Shown here piece after piece: positions 26,129 to 37,640 of a stretch of 64,000 bases of DNA. The translations under genes were made by a program, and so were the position numbers. Each line of letters begins with the position of its first letter. Within the stretch, counting starts at the first letter, position 1. The DNA lies in assembly GCA_030435675.1 (NCBI GenBank), contig CM059623.1, positions 11,688,092 through 11,752,091 of the forward strand, given 5' to 3'. The DNA is from Steinernema hermaphroditum (lineage: Eukaryota; Nematoda; Chromadorea; Rhabditida; Steinernematidae). The notes beneath the pieces were generated by a model, which ran no database searches, was not told the origin of the DNA, and saw nothing but the letters and a program-made list of their open reading frames with translations.

Positions 26129-26303
26129 ACTGTCTGTGTGGCTCATTGCAAATGCGCTTTGTTTGTAAGCGGGCGGTGTCGGGTTCGGTTTCCCTCGGGC
26201 TCCTTATTTTGTGTGGGTGTTTTTCCCGTGCGCACGGAAAAACACACAGACAGGCACACAGACCAACGGATCCGTCGGTTCTGCGTTTATATATAGGGGA
26301 TAG
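26129..26303 (+). repeat. tRNA-derived SINE-like repeat
   Basis: The head CTGTCTGTGTGGCTCATTGC matches the tRNA-like start at 9543. A perfect 5-bp anticodon-type stem (CGCTT/AAGCG) follows, then a GGGTTCGG T-arm-like block. The tail contains CACACAGACAGGCACAC and TTTATATATAGGGG, recalling the tail at 36605-36650. No TSD established. Confidence 0.5.
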
Positions 26304-26371
26304 ACCAAAAATCAAATTTAAAGCGCAACGTACCAATGGGAAATCCTTGTTGATCCTTCCGGGGCGTCTCC

Positions 26372-27031
26372 TCACTGACGCGGGGCCATGCCTGCTTGAG
26401 GGCAGTTCCTGGAGATGTGGCCATAGCTCTTGCAGGAGAAGCACAGTTGTTGCCGCTGGATCGGCGCTGGAGTTCGTCCAGGGAAGCCAGGATTCGGGAA
26501 ACCGAAAAGATGCGCTTGTTGCTGAGCGAGCTGCTGATGCAGCAGTTGGTGCTGCTGACTTGCGACGATGTCCCAAGGATTGACTGCGACGGTAGGACGG
26601 GAATAGCTACCGCCGCCGCTCCGAAAGGGCCAGGCCCGCTTACGCTCCGCGGGGACACGCTGCTTTTGCGATGACGATGGCGTCGTGGCTTCTACTTTGG
26701 CGAACTCTTGAAGCGCTTCTTGTACGCACTGCGCGAATGACAGGTCCGGCTTGGCGTCCCGGTGGTTGTCAAAAAAGCCAAAGAACTCAGGCTTGGTGTC
26801 GCCCTTTTTGAGAAGCAGATTCCTTGCTTTCAACATCTCCACAGCTTCGTCTATCGCATCATTCTCGCCTCGTTCCAGGAGAGCGATGACTTCCTCGTTG
26901 AACTTCGTTTGCACCTCTAAGCGAGAAGATTTGAGCGGTTTGGACGCGCCCTTTTTGAGCAAGTCGTTCACTCGCTGGTTGTTTGCAATGACCAGTTGCT
27001 TTATTTCTTCGAGCTTGTCGGACTCGGACAT
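26372..27031 (-). CDS. CCHC zinc-knuckle (Gag-like) protein
   Basis: ORF of 219 residues from MSESDKLEEIKQLV to a stop at 26372. It is hydrophilic and helical in the first ~120 residues, Ser/Gln/Pro-rich in the middle, and ends with CFSCKSYGHISRNC, an exact C-x2-C-x4-H-x4-C knuckle. The ATG directly follows TTTTTCTAG, with a GTACGT donor about 60 nt further upstream, so a 5' exon may exist. Nucleic-acid binding is inferred. It could be an orphan retroelement Gag or a domesticated derivative; it is separated from the DIRS element by idhb-1 exons and does not belong to that insertion. Confidence 0.6.
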   Translation of the reverse strand: MSESDKLEEIKQLVIANNQRVNDLLKKGASKPLKSSRLEVQTKFNEEVIALLERGENDAIDEAVEMLKARNLLLKKGDTKPEFFGFFDNHRDAKPDLSFAQCVQEALQEFAKVEATTPSSSQKQRVPAERKRAWPFRSGGGSYSRPTVAVNPWDIVASQQHQLLHQQLAQQQAHLFGFPNPGFPGRTPAPIQRQQLCFSCKSYGHISRNCPQAGMAPRQ

Positions 27032-27267
27032 CTAGAAAAATGTACCTGAGGCAACAGGTGGAACAGACAGACACGTACCTTGAACCGTGCTTTGATTCTC
27101 CAAGCAGCCAACGACTTTTTCCTTCAAAAAAAGGAGAGAGATGCTCTGAAAATAACCAACTAATAAATTTTAGGATAAAGACTGTAATCTCTCGATATGC
27201 GCCGCGCAAAGAAAACGAAGCCGAGGCTGCGAGATAAACAAGATATCAAATCTCTTTCGGTACAACT

Positions 27268-27377
27268 CCAGTATCGAGGACTGAGTGGGCTTCCACGGAA
27301 ACTTTAACGCCAGTATCGGGGACTGGCTCAACTCGCACACCAGGCGAAAGATTTTTCCAACCAGTATCGAGGACTGT
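27268..27377. repeat. Three copies of CCAGTATCGRGGACTG
   Basis: Near-identical 16-mers occur around 27270, 27311 and 27361, spaced about 40-50 nt, upstream of the zinc-knuckle ORF. Each is bounded by CAGT and ACTG in mirror image. Role unknown. Confidence 0.6.
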
Positions 27378-27556
27378 TACCAAGCAAATCAATGACCGAC
27401 AACCAACTATATACTCTAATTCAGCCACAACTTCCGAAACGTCCCAAAGAACAATATAAGTAAGCAAGATTTAACCAATTCAAGATCTCCAAACAAAAAC
27501 TTCAAATGACCGTTGAACAGACAAGAACAGAAGCAGAACAGAAGCATGTTCATGGT

Positions 27557-30500
27557 TTAGATTCGGAAGTTCTCAATGATAGCGTCAGTAAATTCACTGG
27601 TGGAGGCATATCCTCCAAGATCGCGTGTCTTCACTTTTCCATCCTTGATAACCTTCTCGACGGCTAAGCGGAGACCGCGACCGTACTCATCAAGGTGCAG
27701 GTGATTAAGCATGTTGGAGGCAGAAAGAATCATAGCAGTGGGATTCGCAATTTGGCTAAACGAGAGCGGTGAGGACAGTTTCACTGCCTTATAGCCTACC
27801 GTCCAATGGCCTCCTGGAAAGAGTGTCGCGATCCGGGCTCGAAGATGACATAGTCGGAGCCGACGGACTGACCAGAAACGACGCCAGCACCTCCGATCAA
27901 ACCAGCAGCGAGGTTATCAATGATGTTGCCGTAAAGGTTGGGCATGACCATCACGTCGAACTGCTCAGGACGGGATACAAGTTGCATGCAGGTATTGTCG
28001 ATAATCATTGACTCGAATTCGATTTTCGGATAGAGCTTCGCCATTTCTTGGCACACCTTGAGGAAGAGACCGTCTCCTAGCTTTATGATATTCGCCTTGT
28101 GCACGGCAGTAACCTAGAAAACAGTTCGTGTGACCATCAGTTTTAGTGAGCAGCGTCCACCTTTCTGCGATTGTGCTTCGTAGCATAGTCGAAAGCAAAC
28201 TTCGCGATACGTTCAATCTTGGCACGGGTGGAAATCTTCAGGCACTCAATGAGTAGATTATGCTAGATTTATTGACGGATAATCTAGCTTTTAGTACAGT
28301 GCAAACATATTTACAACAGCATTTGCGACAACCTATCAGAGGGACCCGATTTTTCAACATCAGGAAAAAACCTTTGGAGGACAGAACTGAACGTGAGACT
28401 TTTGCTAAAGCCGCTCGGTCCTCACGCGAGAACTTGAATTTGGGATAGCGTGGGGTATGCTCCGCGCCGAGCGCCTTCCTCTCCGATTTTGAGATAAGCG
28501 TAAAGTTTGAAGTAAAGAACCACATGTAGAACGTGTCCTGAATCTGTCCAACCATCGACTAGTGATTTGACCGAAAATATATGATTCAATGTCCCTGACA
28601 GGAACAATAACAACAACAAATAAGCATAGGGGCCTCGAAAGGCCAACAACGAACAATCTGACGAAGTAAATGACCTTTACTTCTTTCCACGGCGTGCATA
28701 AACGCCTCCGGCTGTCTTCTTGCCTGGACGAGCGCGACGATCAACTTCTCGGTTGCGCTCATTTGAACGACCACGACCTGGAGAGTGATTTCTGTATCTA
28801 AAAGAAGTATTTTGAGGAAAGGACTAGTATTTTTTTTTTTTTAAAAAGGAAGATAAGTTGCTCTTGGGTCAGTGGCCAGGGTGGGAGTGTAAATATGTTT
28901 GCACTGTACTAAAAGCTAGATTATCCGTCAATAAATCTAGCATAATCTACTCATTTTAGTACAGTGCTCACATATTTACAACAGCATCGTTTAAAGCCTG
29001 AGCAACATTTACCCCAAAACCGCGTTTTGCAGGGTATCTTCCTGATCTCTATGATAAAAGCGCTCGAATGTAGACGAGCTCGCCCAATTAGCTGCCTTCA
29101 AGATTTGCTGAGCAGAAACACCTGCTAATGCAGCACGAGACGTGCTCGCGCTACGAGTCGAATGAGCCGAGAACTGCTCACTGACTCCAGCGTTTCGTAG
29201 TACTTCTTTCAACCAACGTGCGACGGTTACTGAAGACACAGAACCGTGAGGCTTGCGCCAAGACACCAACAGCGCGAAACAACCTGGATCACGCAAATCC
29301 TTAGTCATCGCTAGGTAAGCCTCCATATTTCTAATGGGACACAAGCGCTTTGAGCCTGTGTATCGCGCATAACAAGCTTCGTGCTCGGGACCCTGGCGCC
29401 TGTTCTTTGTCTTTGACAAAGAAACAATCCACTTGTTAGACGCCCTTTTGCAACGATCCATAGATAGAGCCGCTAGTTCGCTTACGCGCTTCGGAGAACA
29501 CAATGCGAGAAGCATCGCCAACTTTAAAGTCTGATTCTTCAAAGAAGAGCAATCCATGTCCTCCAAATACGCGACTACGGGCGCGACGTCCCAAATATAG
29601 TCATATTTTGGCTTACTGGGTTTTTGCCGGAAAAACCCTTTCATGGCTCGACGAACTAGCTCACGATTGATGAGCTTGTCACATTCCGCTGCCTCCAGAA
29701 AACTTAAAACGGCGGATTTATTCAGCGCGACTGTATTGTAAAGCGCTCCTTGCGATAGCATATTCGTTAAATAATTAATAAGCATCTGAGAAGTTATCGC
29801 TCTCAGATTTAACGATTCACGCTCACACCAGTCAAAAAATCTTTTAACTGATGAATCGTATTGGCCTCTAGTGGACGGCGCCCAAGAGTCAAGTAGCGCT
29901 TTCGCTGCTCCTTCGGAAAACCCAACAGCCCTCCAGACATGCGATAAATCCTCCATAGAACGAGGCGGAAGTCGGTCCGGTAGCTCAGAGGGTGATCCTC
30001 TCCCGCCGCGTTCACTAAAAAACGACTAGTTTTTGGGAGAATTATAGGCGGATAGTGAGTATAACGCAGAAGGATAGGCCAGTAAAACTGAGACGGCCAA
30101 AAGGGCGTTATGAGCAGCAAAGGCGAGCCATCCTGCTGGGCCTTGCGCAAGACTCTCCCGATAAGGCAAAACGGTGGGAAGGCATAAGCTAACCCGTAAT
30201 TCCAACTATGGGCGAAAGCATCAACAGCTTCAGCATACGGATCGGGGCGGTAACTGATAAAGCGTTCACATTGGCGAGATAGACGCGTGGCAAACAAGTC
30301 GATCGCCGGAAATCCGCAACATTCAAAGATCACTCTTGTGATCCTTTTGTCAAGTGTCCAATCATCTTTGTCAAGAAAAACTCGTGATTCACGGTCTGCC
30401 ACAACATTCTCCACTCCAGGGATGTGCGCAGCACAGAGAAAGATATTTCTTCCTCGAGCCCAATTCCAAATTGAACGCGAAAGCTCAAGAAGCGACCCGC

Positions 30501-33500
30501 TCCTGGTTCCTCCGAACCGGTTAATATAAGCGATAGCTACTGCGCTGTCCGATTCGATGAGCACTGTAATGTTAGAAGACGCGCTTGCAAAAATCTTCAA
30601 ACCGAAGAGAATTGCCTTCAACTCAAGGATGTTTATATGCAAACGACTCTCCTCGATGGACCAACGGCCACCAGTGGATATGAGACCGCAAACAGCTCCC
30701 CAACCTCTTGTTGACGCGTCAGTCTGAATTTTGAGGGAAACTGGAGCCTCCAGAAGTTTGCGAGTGCGCTCGCTTCTAACATTATCGTACCACCAACGCA
30801 CATCAGCCAGCTCGTCCTCCGTCAGAGAACAAGGTGCATCATAATCTATTGAAGAGCCGCGTTTGTTAGCTTTGCGATGCAACGAACGCTGTAAGCGGCG
30901 AGCCATTAACTTAGAAAAGTAGCAGGCAACATTGCATGCTGAGAGACGGCCTAAAAATTCAGCCAGGTCTCGTAAACTGCATGTGGCGTGCATCAAACGC
31001 CAGGCTTTTTCTCTTATCTTCTGAATCTTAGCATCCGGAATAGTTAGAGTCATCGCACTTGCATTCACAATAAAACCAAGGAACTCCAAAGTGCGCGATG
31101 GAGTCTGTGAAGACTTCTCCTCATTAATGATTAAGCCGAGATGGGCAAAAACAGAGCGCACCACCTTCAGGTCTTGCACAAGACCCTTCTTTGACTCGTT
31201 AAGGAACAACCAGTCATCCAAATAAACAATTAGACGTAGTCCTAATTGTCGCAGGTGCGTGGCAACCACACGCATCACCTTAGAATAAACATAAGGCGCG
31301 GAAGATAGTCCAAAAGGCAATGCTCGGAACTGGTAAGTGCTGCCGTTGAACTTAAAACAGAGCCACTTGCGGTCGCTAGCAGCGATTGGAACCCCAAAGT
31401 AGGCGTCCTTCATGTCCAATTTGGCTAACCAGTCATCGGGTAGCAATAACGAACGCAGCATGGAGATGGATTCCATCTTGAAATGTCTAGCTCGAATGAA
31501 CTTATTCAACGGCCTGAGGTTGATCACCGGCCTATTGCCACCATCTTTCTTAGGCACCAAGAAAACATTGGAGAACCACAGGTTTGCTCCATCTTTGACT
31601 TTCACAATGGCGCGCTTATCTAGCAAACTAGCGATCTCGTCCAGAATGGCGTTCTGCTGACACAGCGAGAACTTCCTAGCGTTTGAAACATGCACAGACC
31701 TCGACGGCGAGAGACTGCGAGAGAATTCGAGCTTATAGCCCTGAATAGTGCTCAAAATCCATTTATCGCTGGTGAGCTGAGCCCAGTTCTGGACGAAATC
31801 AGCTAGCCTGCCGGCCTGACAAGCCGACTTAATGGCTACGAACGAGGGTCGTTTCGAGGACGGCGAAGAGTCGTACACTTGATCCAGTAAAGAATCATAC
31901 CTCGATCGGAACGATTGCGAGTAGCGGGATGACTGAGCGCGAGAGGGTCGACTGCCTTCGCGTGAACGTTTCTCCAGCTTGCGAATGACCTGGCCGAAGT
32001 CAGAATCACCGGCCTTTTCCCGTGCTTCCTTGAGCAACGCCGAACCGAACAAGGGGACTCCCATCTCCCCTGCCGAAGTGCTCATTGACTCCTCTACGGC
32101 GAGCGGGGCCACCTTCAAGTTTGGCATAACCAGCTGGGGATCCTTGCGAGTTGCGGAAGCAATCGCGGCCATTCGACGAGCCGCTGTCGCCTCTTGGATG
32201 CCCCAAGACGCGATCTTACTAATCCAGTCCAAATAAGGGGTGATCTTCGACAAGCTTGCCCCCTTCTCAATACCTGCACTTGCAATGGCAGCCTGGTTAG
32301 CGATCGCCATAAAAAGTCGATGATTATCGACAAGAGCCTTCACTGGAACCACCGCAGATTGATTAGTGTTGGAAGAAGCGAGTGCGGTATCAACGAACGG
32401 CGCGACGGCCGCCAGGTGCTGCACACGGGGAAGCTGATCCAGCAGCTCCTGTCGTTGCTTGCGCGAGACATGCTCCCCTCTCACGGACTTCAGGAATTGG
32501 TCCAACTGGCGGGACTTCAGAACAACCCCTTGATCTGCAGTACGTACTTCAATCTTCGGAGCATCTGGGATATCCGGTGACGAAGACTTGCCATTACGAT
32601 TCGATGGCGTCCTTGAAGCTCGCTCGCGCGAGCGCTGGCGTTCTTCTTTTGTTTCGGAATGCGACGATTCCGAACGAAAACGTGGAGATTTTGAGGACAT
32701 GGAGCGATACGACGATCCTCCATCCTCGGGGAACGAACCTGAAGAGTCGCGACGACGGCGCCTCAAATGGCCTCTCTCATGCAGTGGTGACCGGCGACGG
32801 GAGTAGTGACTTCGGCTAGACGACACGGCTGACGGAGAACGGCGAACTGATCGGGCAGGCGACGAGCTCACTGAGCGACGAATACGGACCGGAGAAGCAC
32901 GATGAGAGACACGAGGCGACTCACCCCGGTTACGACTACCAGGGGAACGCGACAAACGGTTCGCGGAAACTCTGACGCGCGAATCCTTTTCGACGGGACG
33001 GTCAGGCGTACCGCCCGCACGCGCGCCAGAACCATTAGTAGCGGAAGGAGAACCCATTTCCGCTTTCCTGCAACAGAAATACGTCGGTCAATCACAGAGA
33101 TGTCCCTCGATGACGATTATCGAAAAAATCGGAGAGGAAGGCGCTCGGCGCGGAGCATACCCCACGCTATCCCAAATTCAAGTTCTCGCGTGAGGACCGA
33201 GCGGCTTTAGCAAAAGTCTCACGTTCAGTTCTGTCCTCCAAAGGTTTTTTCCTGATGTTGAAAAATCGGGTCCCTCTGATAGGTTGTCGCAAATGCTGTT
33301 GTAAATATGTGAGCACTGTACTAAAATGACCCCGGGAACTAATTCGTGTTCCAAGCTGGAATACTCTCCCTCTGTCTGCTCACGAACAATAACAAAATCA
33401 AGTTCCTTGCCGTGGCGAGTCTTGATTCCATCGAAACTCTGAAAGAGTGCATTAGATCAATAACGAGTATCGCACAACTCACCTTGATGTGGACAACATT

Positions 33501-34025
33501 GGCGAAGAGATCTAGTCGACGCCTCAGCTGCATGTTCATGCCGTGCAGTTCGCTGCTGTGTGGGCCATGGATAGCCTCCTGGATGACACCCTTCAGGGCG
33601 ACGTGGTTGTTGCGCGTGATGGATTCAATCGCGTCTTGGATCGTCGCCGACCGGGTATAGTGCACCTCGGAAAGGAAGACCTCCTCGAACTCGATGGGGA
33701 TGCCGGTGTTCTTGACGATGTCTTGCACTGAGTAGATCAGTTCTGGTCCGACACCGTCACCGGGGATCATCGTTACCTAAATGGAAAAACGTGTTAGAAT
33801 GTGGACGATTGTTAAGGAAATCGGTACTGTACGGATTTTGGGGGACTTTAAGCTGAACTTGCCTTAAGTTTTTGGCTGGCATCGGGTACAGGAGACGTCT
33901 AAAAATACGGATCATGAGAGATGCTTCAAAAAGCAAGTACTTACGGCAGAAACCGCCAATCCACGGACGGCTTGCTTGCCGGAAGCCACACGTGCAAACG
34001 ACGAAACGATTCGATTCCCGATCAT
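27557..34025 (-). CDS. idhb-1: NAD-dependent isocitrate dehydrogenase beta subunit, coding exon split by a DIRS element
   Basis: Mitochondrial TCA-cycle subunit. Exons: 34025-33945 (targeting peptide [16 protein letters not shown]), 33898-33863, 33776-33483 ([11 protein letters not shown]), 33438 to the insertion near 33327, then after the element 28254-28161, 28113-27800 and 27755-27557. The fourth exon reads [12 protein letters not shown] up to the element and resumes with [21 protein letters not shown] beyond it, exactly as in IDH3B, so the insertion lies within a coding exon and restores a continuous frame if removed. [17 protein letters not shown] and [16 protein letters not shown] follow. 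The intron after exon 2 starts AAG|GCAAGT (GC-AG type). With the insertion the allele is probably null unless spliced out. ATG preceded by CGTTACAG. Confidence 0.93.
28289..28490. repeat. DIRS inverted terminal repeat (3' side of element)
   Basis: From TTTTAGTACAGTGC to CTCTCCGATTTT, reverse complement of 33125-33326 with only a few changes. Positions 28255-28288 add an outer extension absent from the other end, as in DIRS-1. Confidence 0.9.
28682..28799 (-). other. Trapped host-like 3' exon inside the DIRS element
   Basis: On the minus strand a TTCTTTTAG acceptor is followed by an open frame ([19 protein letters not shown] through [14 protein letters not shown]) and a TAA. It lies between the internal complementary region and the terminal repeat, where DIRS-1 has no extra DNA. 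It reads like the basic C-terminal exon of a cellular protein that I cannot identify. Capture of flanking host sequence is inference. Confidence 0.4.
28884..28990. repeat. DIRS internal complementary region (ICR)
   Basis: The first ~60 nt are the reverse complement of the 28.25-kb outer terminus (through AATCTACTCAT); the rest (TTTTAGTACAGTGCTCACAT) equals the outer end at 33326 read on the minus strand. It is thus a copy of the joined ends, the template proposed for making circular DIRS DNA. Confidence 0.9.
29009..29956 (-). CDS. DIRS tyrosine recombinase
   Basis: ORF of 315 residues from [20 protein letters not shown]. The N-terminal core-binding region contains [17 protein letters not shown]. 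Catalytic signatures are Arg in [12 protein letters not shown] (about residue 157), HSTRSAS (about 265; H-x2-R), the Trp in [14 protein letters not shown] and its Tyr nucleophile. This enzyme would integrate the circular cDNA, explaining the lack of an integrase. Its start overlaps the end of the upstream RT ORF by about 148 nt in another frame, a usual DIRS layout. No internal stops; it looks functional. Confidence 0.92.
   Translation of the reverse strand: MEDLSHVWRAVGFSEGAAKALLDSWAPSTRGQYDSSVKRFFDWCERESLNLRAITSQMLINYLTNMLSQGALYNTVALNKSAVLSFLEAAECDKLINRELVRRAMKGFFRQKPSKPKYDYIWDVAPVVAYLEDMDCSSLKNQTLKLAMLLALCSPKRVSELAALSMDRCKRASNKWIVSLSKTKNRRQGPEHEACYARYTGSKRLCPIRNMEAYLAMTKDLRDPGCFALLVSWRKPHGSVSSVTVARWLKEVLRNAGVSEQFSAHSTRSASTSRAALAGVSAQQILKAANWASSSTFERFYHRDQEDTLQNAVLG
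29809..33057 (-). CDS. DIRS Gag-like / reverse transcriptase / RNase H / methyltransferase-like polyprotein
   Basis: Single ORF of 1082 residues. Residues 1-170 are Arg/Ser-rich; about 170-450 form a helical, Gag-like part with conserved [15 protein letters not shown]. The reverse transcriptase (about 480-700) has [47 protein letters not shown] and the catalytic YLDDW near residue 614. RNase H (about 775-920) carries [30 protein letters not shown] and [16 protein letters not shown]. The final region ([41 protein letters not shown]) matches the DAM-like methyltransferase segment of DIRS elements. No frame breaks, so the copy may be active. Confidence 0.92.
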   Translation of the reverse strand: MGSPSATNGSGARAGGTPDRPVEKDSRVRVSANRLSRSPGSRNRGESPRVSHRASPVRIRRSVSSSPARSVRRSPSAVSSSRSHYSRRRSPLHERGHLRRRRRDSSGSFPEDGGSSYRSMSSKSPRFRSESSHSETKEERQRSRERASRTPSNRNGKSSSPDIPDAPKIEVRTADQGVVLKSRQLDQFLKSVRGEHVSRKQRQELLDQLPRVQHLAAVAPFVDTALASSNTNQSAVVPVKALVDNHRLFMAIANQAAIASAGIEKGASLSKITPYLDWISKIASWGIQEATAARRMAAIASATRKDPQLVMPNLKVAPLAVEESMSTSAGEMGVPLFGSALLKEAREKAGDSDFGQVIRKLEKRSREGSRPSRAQSSRYSQSFRSRYDSLLDQVYDSSPSSKRPSFVAIKSACQAGRLADFVQNWAQLTSDKWILSTIQGYKLEFSRSLSPSRSVHVSNARKFSLCQQNAILDEIASLLDKRAIVKVKDGANLWFSNVFLVPKKDGGNRPVINLRPLNKFIRARHFKMESISMLRSLLLPDDWLAKLDMKDAYFGVPIAASDRKWLCFKFNGSTYQFRALPFGLSSAPYVYSKVMRVVATHLRQLGLRLIVYLDDWLFLNESKKGLVQDLKVVRSVFAHLGLIINEEKSSQTPSRTLEFLGFIVNASAMTLTIPDAKIQKIREKAWRLMHATCSLRDLAEFLGRLSACNVACYFSKLMARRLQRSLHRKANKRGSSIDYDAPCSLTEDELADVRWWYDNVRSERTRKLLEAPVSLKIQTDASTRGWGAVCGLISTGGRWSIEESRLHINILELKAILFGLKIFASASSNITVLIESDSAVAIAYINRFGGTRSGSLLELSRSIWNWARGRNIFLCAAHIPGVENVVADRESRVFLDKDDWTLDKRITRVIFECCGFPAIDLFATRLSRQCERFISYRPDPYAEAVDAFAHSWNYGLAYAFPPFCLIGRVLRKAQQDGSPLLLITPFWPSQFYWPILLRYTHYPPIILPKTSRFLVNAAGEDHPLSYRTDFRLVLWRIYRMSGGLLGFPKEQRKRYLTLGRRPLEANTIHQLKDFLTGVSVNR
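33125..33326. repeat. DIRS inverted terminal repeat (5' side of element)
   Basis: Mirror image of 28289-28490. It probably holds the element promoter, as it precedes the Gag-RT ORF start at 33057. Confidence 0.9.
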
Positions 34026-34351
34026 GTCACCTGTAACGAGAGTTTAGTTTGGGCTGCAAACAAAAAACGCGAATCTGGCACTTGAATCGATCGCAAATCG
34101 CTGTGATCGGCACTGCAAACGATTCCAATCAACGACACACCGCGCTGCCGATCGTTTCGAGTAGGAATTGCAGGCAAAAGACGTGAACGAAACCCATTTG
34201 CGAAAATCGTGCGCTAGCAGACAACGCGCGCATGGCTCACGAAAACGGAAAACAAAAGAAGAAAGACACTTCGTGGTGGGACCATCCGTAAAGTTCAGAC
34301 GCGCGTTTTGAGGACGGACAGAGCACCATTGCCTTGGCTTCATTTAGTACT

Positions 34352-35280
34352 GACTAGATTGTCCCACGGAGATTTAACCTCTTTTCAAAGTTATTTTAAT
34401 AATTTAGACACATTTGCAAAGTTTTATATTTTTTGAATTGGGGAATAACTTGTTTTTAAAAGGATTTTACTATTCAGATTAAACGATTCAGATTCTTTAG
34501 AGGGAGTTGGAATTAAATACAGATTTTATCTGTTAAATAGGTGCCTTCAGAGCAGCTCATTTCTCCTATATGTCTTCATATTAACGGTTTGTTATATTTA
34601 GAGTTCTCATAGGATCTTCACCAAGGCAGATTCTGGAAGTCTCTGACTCTCATAGGGTCTTCATGGAGGCAGTCTTCCTATCTTTGGAGTCGCGCGGGGT
34701 TTTGTTTTCATTGAGACCTTCAAAGAAGTCAGCTTTCTCCTCTCACTCTCATAGGGTCTTCAGAGAAGCTGACTTCTTTAGCTGAATTCACAGGAAGTTC
34801 TGTGGCTCTCATAGAGTCTTAACGGAGGCATTCTTCCTATGTTTTGGAGTCGTGCGGGGGTTTGTTTTCATTGAGACCTTCAAAGAAGTCAGCTTTCTCC
34901 TCTCACTCTCATAGGGTCTTCAGAGAAGCTGACTTCTTTAGCTGAATTCACAGGAAGTTCTGTGGCTCTCATATGGTCTTAACGGAGGCATTCTTCCTAT
35001 CTTTGGAGTCGCGCGGGGTCTTGTTTTCATTGATACCTTCAAAGAAGTCAGCTTTCTCCTCTCACTCTCATAGGGTCTTCAGCAAGGCAGATTCTGGAAG
35101 TCCCTGACACTCATAAGATCTTCATGGAGGCATTCTTCCTATCTTTGGAGTCGCGCGGGGTCTTGTTTTCATTGAGACCTTCAAAGAAGTCAGCTTTCTC
35201 CTCTCACTCTCATAGGGTCTTCACGGAGACAGATTCTTCGGATGAAGTCGCACATATTTTTTTAAAATTGAAGTTTCGAT
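34352..35280. repeat. Repeat block C, copy 1
   Basis: Starts GACTAGATTGTCCCACGGAG and matches 36651-37640 in direct orientation at an offset of about 2,299 bp. Inside are 3-4 imperfect ~150-bp units with TTTGGAGTCGCGCGGGG and CTCTCATAGGGTCTTC. No coding potential. Confidence 0.85.
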
Positions 35281-35320
35281 GAGCTAACATCTTTTTATGT
35301 GGAAGTCGGGCGTGCTTTCC

Positions 35321-35915
35321 CTTTGAGACACTTGCTTACTTTTGTCTGAACATGTGACATTTCCAAGTTTGTTTGTCGCATTACAGCTAACGTGCTGACA
35401 CAACTCAGCACTTCTTAAGATGCGTTTTAGGCACTTTTCAAACACTTGCATGAACGTATGACATTTACTAAAATTTTGGTCTCACCACGACAAACATGTC
35501 TACATAGGTTAATAGTTCATAGGCTTCATTTTAGGCACTTTTCTGGCAGTCGTCTGAACGTATGACATTTCCTAAAATTTTGTTCTCGAAACGACGAACA
35601 TGTTAGCGTAGTCTAATACTTCATAGGTTTCGTTTTAGGCACTTTTCAAACACTTGCATGAACGTATGACATTTACTAAAATCTTGGTCTCACCACGACA
35701 AACATGTCTACATAGGTTAATAGTTCATAGGCTTCATTTTAGGCACTTTTCTGGCAGTCGTCTGAACGTATGACATTTACTAAAATTGTAGTCTCGCGAC
35801 GACGAATATGTTAGCGTAGTCTAATACTTCATAGGTTTCGTTTTAGGCACTTTTTCAACACTTGTCTGAACATGTGACATTTCCAAAATTTTTGGGTCTC
35901 ACCACGATTCATTTT
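35321..35915. repeat. 104-bp satellite with alternating subtypes
   Basis: TTTTAGGCACTTTT recurs at 35425, 35529, 35633, 35737 and 35841, exactly 104 bp apart. Alternate units are more alike (A-B-A-B), a 208-bp higher-order repeat. Units contain GAACGTATGACATTT, also found in the satellite at 42.9 kb. Confidence 0.9.
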
Positions 35916-35995
35916 CCAGAAGTTTCAAGAAGTTTCGAGAACATTCTGGAATGGACGAACCTGTGACATTTCCTGTGTTTAAACATGGCCACTTA

Positions 35996-36494
35996 CAAGG
36001 GAACATCCCCAAGTGCCCGACGAGTTAGGAGCTGAGATGTGGCGCGGCTTGTAGACGGTCTTCTAACTAAGAAAACGCACATAGTCTCACCGGCCATAAA
36101 TCAGTCGGGCTACCATAAAGATGGTCATGAAGTTGCAAGGTCTCCTGGTGCGATGTCCCTGACTAGTCAGAATATACGGTATTTTTGTCCGATTTTGGAC
36201 GGGGTTTTTAAGGATTTCGGCATTTAGAGCCAAAATTAACATTACCAGTTAACAACCATGTTCTTTTAGCAAGAAAAGGGGTCAAAAAATGACAAAAACT
36301 GACATGAAAACCGTATATTCTGACGAGTCAGGGACATCGCACCAGGAGACCTTGCAACTTCATGACCATCTTTATGGTAGCCCGACTGATTTATGGCCGA
36401 TGAGATTATGTGCGTTTTCTTAGTTAGAAGACCGTCTACAAGCCGCGCCATATCTCAGCTCCTAACTCGTCGGGCACTTGGGGATGTTCCCTTG
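35996..36494. mobile_element. Foldback MITE, PIF/Harbinger-like
   Basis: Arms 35996-36180 and 36310-36494 (185 bp each, about four differences) are inverted repeats starting CAAGGGAACATCCCC. Direct TTA repeats at 35993-35995 and 36495-36497 form a 3-bp target duplication, as for PIF/Harbinger or Tourist elements. No transposase. Confidence 0.8.
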
Positions 36495-36604
36495 TTAGCC
36501 CATTTTGTATAGGATGACAGCGAAAAGACCCGGTGCATTTGATAGAGGTCAATGAGCTCTACAAGATGGCATTAACACCGAAGTCAACGGATTGATTTTG
36601 TTTC

Positions 36605-36650
36605 GGACAGACAGACACACCCGTCCCATCTGCTTTATATAGGGGCGGTC
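36605..36650 (+). repeat. SINE-type tail
   Basis: GGACAGACAGACACACCC followed by CTGCTTTATATAGGGG resembles the tail at 26240-26303. The matching tRNA-like head is not evident upstream. Confidence 0.35.
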
Positions 36651-37640
36651 GACTAGATTGTCCCACGGAGATTTAACCTCTTTTCAAAGTTATTTTAATA
36701 ATTTAGACACATTTGCAAAGTTTTATATTTTTTGAACTGGGGAATAACTTATCTTTAAAAGGATTTTACTATTCAGATTAAACGATTCAGATTCTTTAGA
36801 GGGAGTTGGAACTAAATACAGATTTTATCTGTTAAATAGGTGCCTTCAGAGCAGCTCATTTCTCCTATATGTCTTCATATTAACAGTTTGTTATATTTAG
36901 AGTTCTCATAGGATCTTCACCAAGGCAGATTCTGGAAGTCTCTGACTATCATAGGGTCTTCACCAAGGCAGATTCTGGAAGTCTCTAACTCTCATAGGAT
37001 CTTCATGGAGGCAGTCTTCCTACCTTTGGAGTCGCGCGGGGTTTTGTTTTCATTGAGACCTTCAAAGAAGTCAGCTTTCTCCTCTCATTCTCATAGGGTC
37101 TTCGGAGAAGCTGACTTCTTTAGCTGAATTCACCGAAGTTCTGTGGCTCTCATACGGTCTTTATGGAGGCAGTCTTCCTATTTTTGGAGTCGTGCGGGGT
37201 CTTGTTTTCATTGAGACCTTCAAAGAAGTCAGCTTTCTCCTCTCACTCTCATAGGGTCTTCAGCAAGGCAGATTCTGGAAGTCCCTGACACTCATAAGAT
37301 CTTCATGGAGGCATTCTTCCTATCTTTGGAGTCGCGCGGGGTCTTGTTTTCATTGAGACCTTCAAAGAAGTCAGCTTTCTCCTCTCACTCTCATAGGGTC
37401 TTCAGCAAGGCAGATTCTGGAAGTCCCTGACACTCATAAGATCTTCATGGAGGCATTCTTCCTATCTTTGGAGTCGCGCGGGGTCTTGTTTTCATTGAGA
37501 CCTTCAAAGAAGTCAGCTTTCTCCTCTCACTCTCATAGGGTCTTCAGCAAGGCAGATTCTGGAAGTCCCTGACACTCATAAGATCTTCATGGAGGCATTC
37601 TTCCTATCTTTGGAGTCGCGTGGGGTTTTGTTTTCATTCT
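36651..37640. repeat. Repeat block C, copy 2
   Basis: Direct copy of 34352-35280 with more internal unit repeats: the CCCTGACACTCATAAGATC unit occurs three times in succession from about 37270. Confidence 0.85.

Follow-up and report, generated by a model that had tools for sequence, protein, structure and literature searches.

The stretch of DNA analysed here, a window of 64,000 nucleotides (C3:11688092-11752091) from the 90.6-Mb genome of the nematode Steinernema hermaphroditum, carries on its minus strand idhb-1, the gene of isocitrate dehydrogenase beta, and exon 4 of this gene is split by a DIRS1-type tyrosine-recombinase retrotransposon. The coding sequence runs ...ELVPGV, then the element, then ECLKISTR. 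Exons 1-3 (34025-33945, 33898-33863 and 33776-33483, spanning 33483..34025) and exons 5-6 (28113-27800 and 27755-27557, spanning 27557..28113) were defined on an uninterrupted copy of the gene on C1 and carried over by alignment. The same alignment and the exon boundaries delimit the two parts of exon 4, the upstream part at 33330..33438, which ends in ...ELVPGV, and the downstream part at 28161..28252, which reads I/ECLKISTR.... The C1 copy (L009) aligns to the window at 27540-28252 and 33325-34147, that is, on both sides of the element, which agrees with an earlier note on this DNA that had placed the element inside a coding exon. In the coordinates of L009 the two alignment pieces overlap by 5 nt, AATGA, which gives the insertion a length of 5,077 bp. 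The alignment of this empty site, together with a second copy of the element (L042), puts the minus-strand retrotransposon at 28253..33329; 28248-33324 is equivalent, because the AATGA core (plus-strand letters), found at the upstream junction with idhb-1 (33325..33329) and at the downstream junction (28248..28252), can be assigned to either element end. The earlier note had the location right, but its span of 28255-33326 (5,072 bp) was 5 bp short because the core is common to the target and the element. Its statement that the reading frame is exact once the element is removed holds for the cut 28253-33329 only, whereas removal of 28255-33326 leaves 5 extra bases and breaks the frame.

The search of the genome for the IDHB protein found 21 matches at the level of exons, which were assigned by reading to the window gene, to the C1 copy, to a paralog on C3 (L010) and to more distant relatives on C5 and C2 that are taken to be other isocitrate dehydrogenase subunits or paralogs. 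The C1 copy differs from the window gene at 7 positions in 1,531 bp, introns included (99.4-99.7% identity in the alignment pieces), keeps the exact empty site, and has six exons with splice sites that encode 374 aa with no internal stop; a 10-kb C1 stretch matches the window across the gene only. The third, older paralog (C3:11358620-11359777, QR680_014131) lies 356 kb away on the same contig as the window copy and shows about 77-81% DNA identity and 89% protein identity. The insertion site is uninterrupted in the DNA of L010 and in the predicted protein P0122 of S. carpocapsae, so the empty site is ancestral. The idhb-1 exon 2 (window 33863-33898) ends in a GC splice donor, AAG/GCAAGT, in both the window copy and L009, and L010 has GT at this place. 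A second copy had been one of four explanations offered beforehand for the broken gene, and the search of the assembly suggested for it has thus returned the near-identical C1 copy plus L010; the other three, heterozygosity, somatic excision and splicing over the element, are then unneeded. The more alarming reading, an apparent loss of a tricarboxylic acid (TCA) cycle gene, is not upheld: the apparent puzzle of a broken idhb-1 is solved because a near-identical intact copy exists, and since this almost identical, unbroken gene lies on another chromosome, the seeming loss probably reflects an ordinary insertion into a spare copy.

The repeat layout of the element is that of the DIRS1 type, which bears out the type first proposed for it. 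The left inverted terminal repeat (ITR), which on the minus strand is the element's 5' end, lies at 33125..33326 and the right ITR at 28289..28490 (202 nt, 99% identical to the left); they match at 200 of 202 positions and are indeed nearly identical. Outside the right ITR is a right extension (28253..28288), which contains the acceptor TCTAG/CAT (28263/28262) of an NCBI gene model. The internal complementary regions (ICR) occupy 28888..28987 on the minus strand and consist of a 68-nt complement (28248-28315 with 28888-28955, 100%) and a 37-nt complement (28951-28987 with 33293-33329, 100%); these perfect complements of the two ends of the element meet at 28951-28955 and overlap at the circle junction AAAATGAGTAG.

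Both open reading frames (ORFs) of the element are open, as had been claimed. ORF 1 (29809-33087, minus strand, 1092 aa) comprises an Arg/Ser-rich (SR-rich) gag-like N-terminus, reverse transcriptase (RT), RNase H and a methyltransferase-like region. In Pfam, RVT_1 was matched at 2e-25 (residues 511-674) and was the sole family found in a search with the whole of ORF 1 at E up to 0.1; RNase H is recognised through a weak RVT_3 match (0.024, below the cutoff) and through homologs that cover residues 440-1060. The methyltransferase-like region matched Dam at about residues 906-986 with an E of 0.16 and 12.1 bits against a cutoff of 28.1. The homologs P0035 (RT 514-676, Dam 910-1011 at 1.8e-7) and P0011 (RT 395-558, Dam 791-904 at 2e-5) carry Dam at the same distance from the RT domain as this weak match. 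No Pfam family at E up to 10, and no zinc knuckle, was found in the gag-like region (the N-terminal 362 aa, window:32002-33087 on the minus strand). SR-like N-termini, here at window 32700-33087, are also seen in the gag-like regions of other nematode DIRS-type polyproteins (P0010, P0013 and P0014), and such N-termini may have a link to RNA processing factors. ORF 2 (29009-30025, minus strand, 338 aa) is the tyrosine recombinase (Phage_integrase, 1.2e-9 in Pfam), in which R180, H288-S-T-R291 and Y324 (open-frame numbering) presumably are the catalytic positions of the R, HxxR, Y pattern.

The circle junction is retained within the element as AAAATGAGTAG in the ICR, its complement on the plus strand being GTACTAAAATGAGTAG, and the target at the empty site reads CTCAATGACCC on the plus strand. 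Recombining this circle junction with this target yields both observed junctions, CTCAATGAGTAG and CTAAAATGACCC on the plus strand. Compared with the empty site on C1, there is no target-site duplication, and the AATGA core alone is present at both ends. The junctions look as they should if a tyrosine recombinase had integrated a circle, a mechanism that would follow the one known from the DIRS family. L042, the second copy of the element (C1:9861826-9866894), has the same ends at a different target, which shares two bases, AA, with the circle junction. Over about 5 kb, a single substitution separates L042 from the window element, along with two length differences, one of 4 bp within a run of T and one of 6 bp, which keeps the frame, within a run of GA; both left-right ITR differences are identical in the two copies, and the sole substitution changes Val to Phe in the L042 recombinase. 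The insertion is very young, because the second element copy differs by this one substitution, and its recent date had been rightly called from the letters. The divergence of the element copies in substitutions is about 20-fold below that of the gene copies, a ratio that rests on one event; thus the element insertion looks much younger than the gene duplication, one substitution being a poor clock.

Taken together, these observations make it highly likely that idhb-1 was duplicated and that a DIRS1-like element then entered the spare copy on C3, with the C1 copy supplying the subunit. On this reading a DNA segment of about 1.5 kb, introns included, would have been duplicated, one copy staying in the seemingly single-copy DNA of C1 and the other coming to lie among the repeats of C3, with the order of the two presumed from their surroundings. 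Later, a reverse-transcribed circle of the element would have been joined into exon 4 of the C3 copy by the element's own tyrosine recombinase, at the short core common to the circle junction and the target, without target-site duplication, as presumed from the DIRS family. The C3 copy would then very probably be a young pseudogene and the C1 copy, judging from its sequence, the source of the enzyme subunit.

The order of the two gene copies was assessed from their flanks and their substitutions. Flanks of about 400 bp on each side of the C1 copy match themselves alone, with no second match in the genome. On C3, the low-side flank is a repeat with 10 matches (itself and short pieces included), and the high-side flank, from 34163, is another repeat with 29 matches, itself included; these counts from the flank searches are lower bounds. 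Window positions 26301-27524 hold the end of a repeated element with four other 99% copies (L051-L054), whose matches all stop at window 27524, and the idhb-1 duplicate starts 15 bp from there. In some of the genomic copies of this repeat a 55-bp direct repeat occurs about 3 kb apart, and the repeat overlaps an ORF of 219 aa (26372-27031) that contains a CCHC zinc knuckle. On its 5' side the duplicate is bordered by window 34163-37638, which holds repeats with minisatellite arrays (periods 142, 160 and 104/208) found at many genome sites. The differences at window 28084, 33564 and 33572 are among those that tell the C1 and C3 sequences apart. Two amino-acid differences separate the window and C1 copies. 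At the first, the window has Ile and C1 has Met, and Met is shared by 119 of 120 homologs listed from 7,704 matches, the Ile exception being the C3 paralog L010, with a different codon. Gene conversion from L010 was considered as the source of the window Ile and is unsupported, because the window codon is ATA and that of the paralog ATT, C1 having ATG. The broken C3 copy is probably the derived one and C1 the original, constrained one, because repeats flank the C3 copy, the C1 flanks have no second match and Ile stands at a near-invariant Met; this judgement comes from a small sample of flanks and substitutions. The flank comparison by itself favours C1 as the original without proving so.

Several points weigh against this account. 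If the C3 locus was the original, its repeats could be later arrivals, and the loss of constraint on the C3 copy rests on one or two substitutions. The second amino-acid difference, Ile in the window against Phe in C1 and S. carpocapsae, falls at a variable position, and a synonymous difference at 33564 is derived in C1, the paralog L010 having the base of the window. No separate protein of the C1 copy was found among the 120 listed matches, where it may sit in a 90% cluster or be unannotated.

The C3 gene may also be read as still in use, expressed as a chimera of idhb-1 and RT or with the element skipped through the acceptor in its right extension. The NCBI model QR680_014204 (P0061, 873 aa), predicted from the window locus, is such an IDHB-RT-IDHB chimera: it consists of 144 IDHB residues, 525 aa of the element ORF and then HNLLIECLK... 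to the end of IDHB, joined at TCTAG/CAT within the right extension. Five GT/AG combinations around the element ends would also preserve the frame if the whole element were spliced out in silico; judged by eye and unscored, the five in-frame donors close to the junction include none that looks strong. The chimera is without 18 IDHB residues, from EQTEG to VPGV, and QR680_017418 (P0004) uses this internal acceptor again to fuse the L042 element to an adjacent OTU-domain gene, a recurrence that suggests a habitual join by the gene predictor. Both models are taken as predictor joins, and expression of the C3 gene in either form appears improbable. A C3 gene that escapes silencing altogether, whether through chimeric or element-skipping IDHB made with the in-frame right-extension acceptor or through exact excision of the element that restores the gene, seems quite remote; exact excision is conceivable because a tyrosine recombinase, on integrating an element, leaves the junction cores at its two ends in direct orientation.

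S. hermaphroditum is self-fertile. An insertion that is heterozygous or segregating, with the element in the assembled haplotype and an empty C3 allele elsewhere in the strain or population, deserves more weight, while still being the less likely state: so young an element would be expected to be polymorphic in wild populations, but given self-fertility the reference line is probably largely homozygous, and with the C1 copy present a segregating insertion is unneeded for viability. An element and a gene that are each present in two near-identical copies can confuse an assembly, and the insertion could in principle be an artefact of this kind. However, element and gene meet exactly at the element termini, where the recombination core lies, L042 has other flanks, and the own flanks of the C1 gene copy match nothing else in the genome search. 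An assembly join is unlikely because the junction structure fits recombinase integration and L042 has the same ends at a different target, and we consider an artefact as the explanation of the whole insertion extremely improbable. The duplication of idhb-1 followed by insertion into its C3 copy is thus the reading preferred here, and the public record QR680_014204 is exposed as a chimera in which a housekeeping enzyme is fused to a retrotransposon.

The finding of intact DIRS1-like elements in Chromadoria is new as an extension of their range, of modest novelty. In the survey by Szitenberg et al. (2014) of 34 nematode genomes, DIRS1-like elements are recorded in Enoplia and Dorylaimia, and for Chromadoria a single partial, marginal one in Pristionchus (PMC4157794). 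A 2011 survey of 12 nematode species reports no well-conserved copies (PMC3266345). The search of the open-licence literature for Dirs1-like elements in Nematoda found these two surveys alone, none of the listed matches from 2015 on containing DIRS, and no report of DIRS elements in Steinernema or Panagrolaimus was found there. Named RT matches occur in Panagrolaimus, Nippostrongylus, Heligmosomoides and Plectus, and these sequence matches suggest that DIRS1-like elements are commoner in Chromadoria than the 2014 survey showed, though some of the named relatives could be PAT-like. The locus is also a clean natural example of seemingly recombinase-mediated DIRS1 integration in a nematode maintained in laboratories: the element has two near-identical copies, the empty site is exact and the circle junction is preserved. 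Strain PS9179 of this nematode is the one used in PMC12629237.

The relatives of the element were compared in a midpoint-rooted RT tree of 116 sequences, namely the window and 115 of 120 listed matches (of 801) to the window RT alone. Two fused models, the second record of one S. hermaphroditum gene name and a second N. brasiliensis record were dropped before the tree, and one further sequence was dropped for its short aligned span, P0117 of Panagrolaimus superbus, identified by its 70% coverage. Most of the matches are unnamed, and classified DIRS1 and PAT references are not among the sequences of the tree. The window element and its copy on C1 cluster with two further sequences of S. hermaphroditum (support 0.997), within a group of 27 sequences (0.975) to which all 13 nematode-named matches kept belong; the branching order inside this group has poor support (0.498, 0.658). 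L044 (C3) and L045 (C4), in the same genome, resemble the window element in having inverted arms and a perfect internal complement of 67 or 69 nt, the arms of L045 being 1.7 kb apart and this element therefore probably truncated. L043 (C3) showed no layout of inverted arms and internal complement in the 9.5 kb examined. The recombinases of L043, L044 and L045 are 52-57% identical to that of the window element.

Its repeat layout makes the element DIRS1-like rather than PAT-like, under the structural definitions given in PMC4157794. The PAT-like elements, the tyrosine-recombinase retrotransposons first known from nematodes, share with it the RT, the tyrosine recombinase and a nematode host. The same source describes split direct repeats for PAT and a zinc finger in the Gag of Pat1. 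In the window element the terminal repeats are inverted, so the split direct repeats A1-B1-A2-B2 are absent, and the N-terminal 362 aa gave no Pfam match of the Pat1 zinc-finger kind. From the DIRS1-like elements it differs in its SR-rich N-terminus and in a methyltransferase domain that is weakly recognised (Dam). Like them, it has no target-site duplication and no zinc knuckle found in the gag-like region, and it shares with them the inverted terminal repeats, the internal complementary regions overlapping at the circle junction, the RT-RNase H and the tyrosine recombinase.

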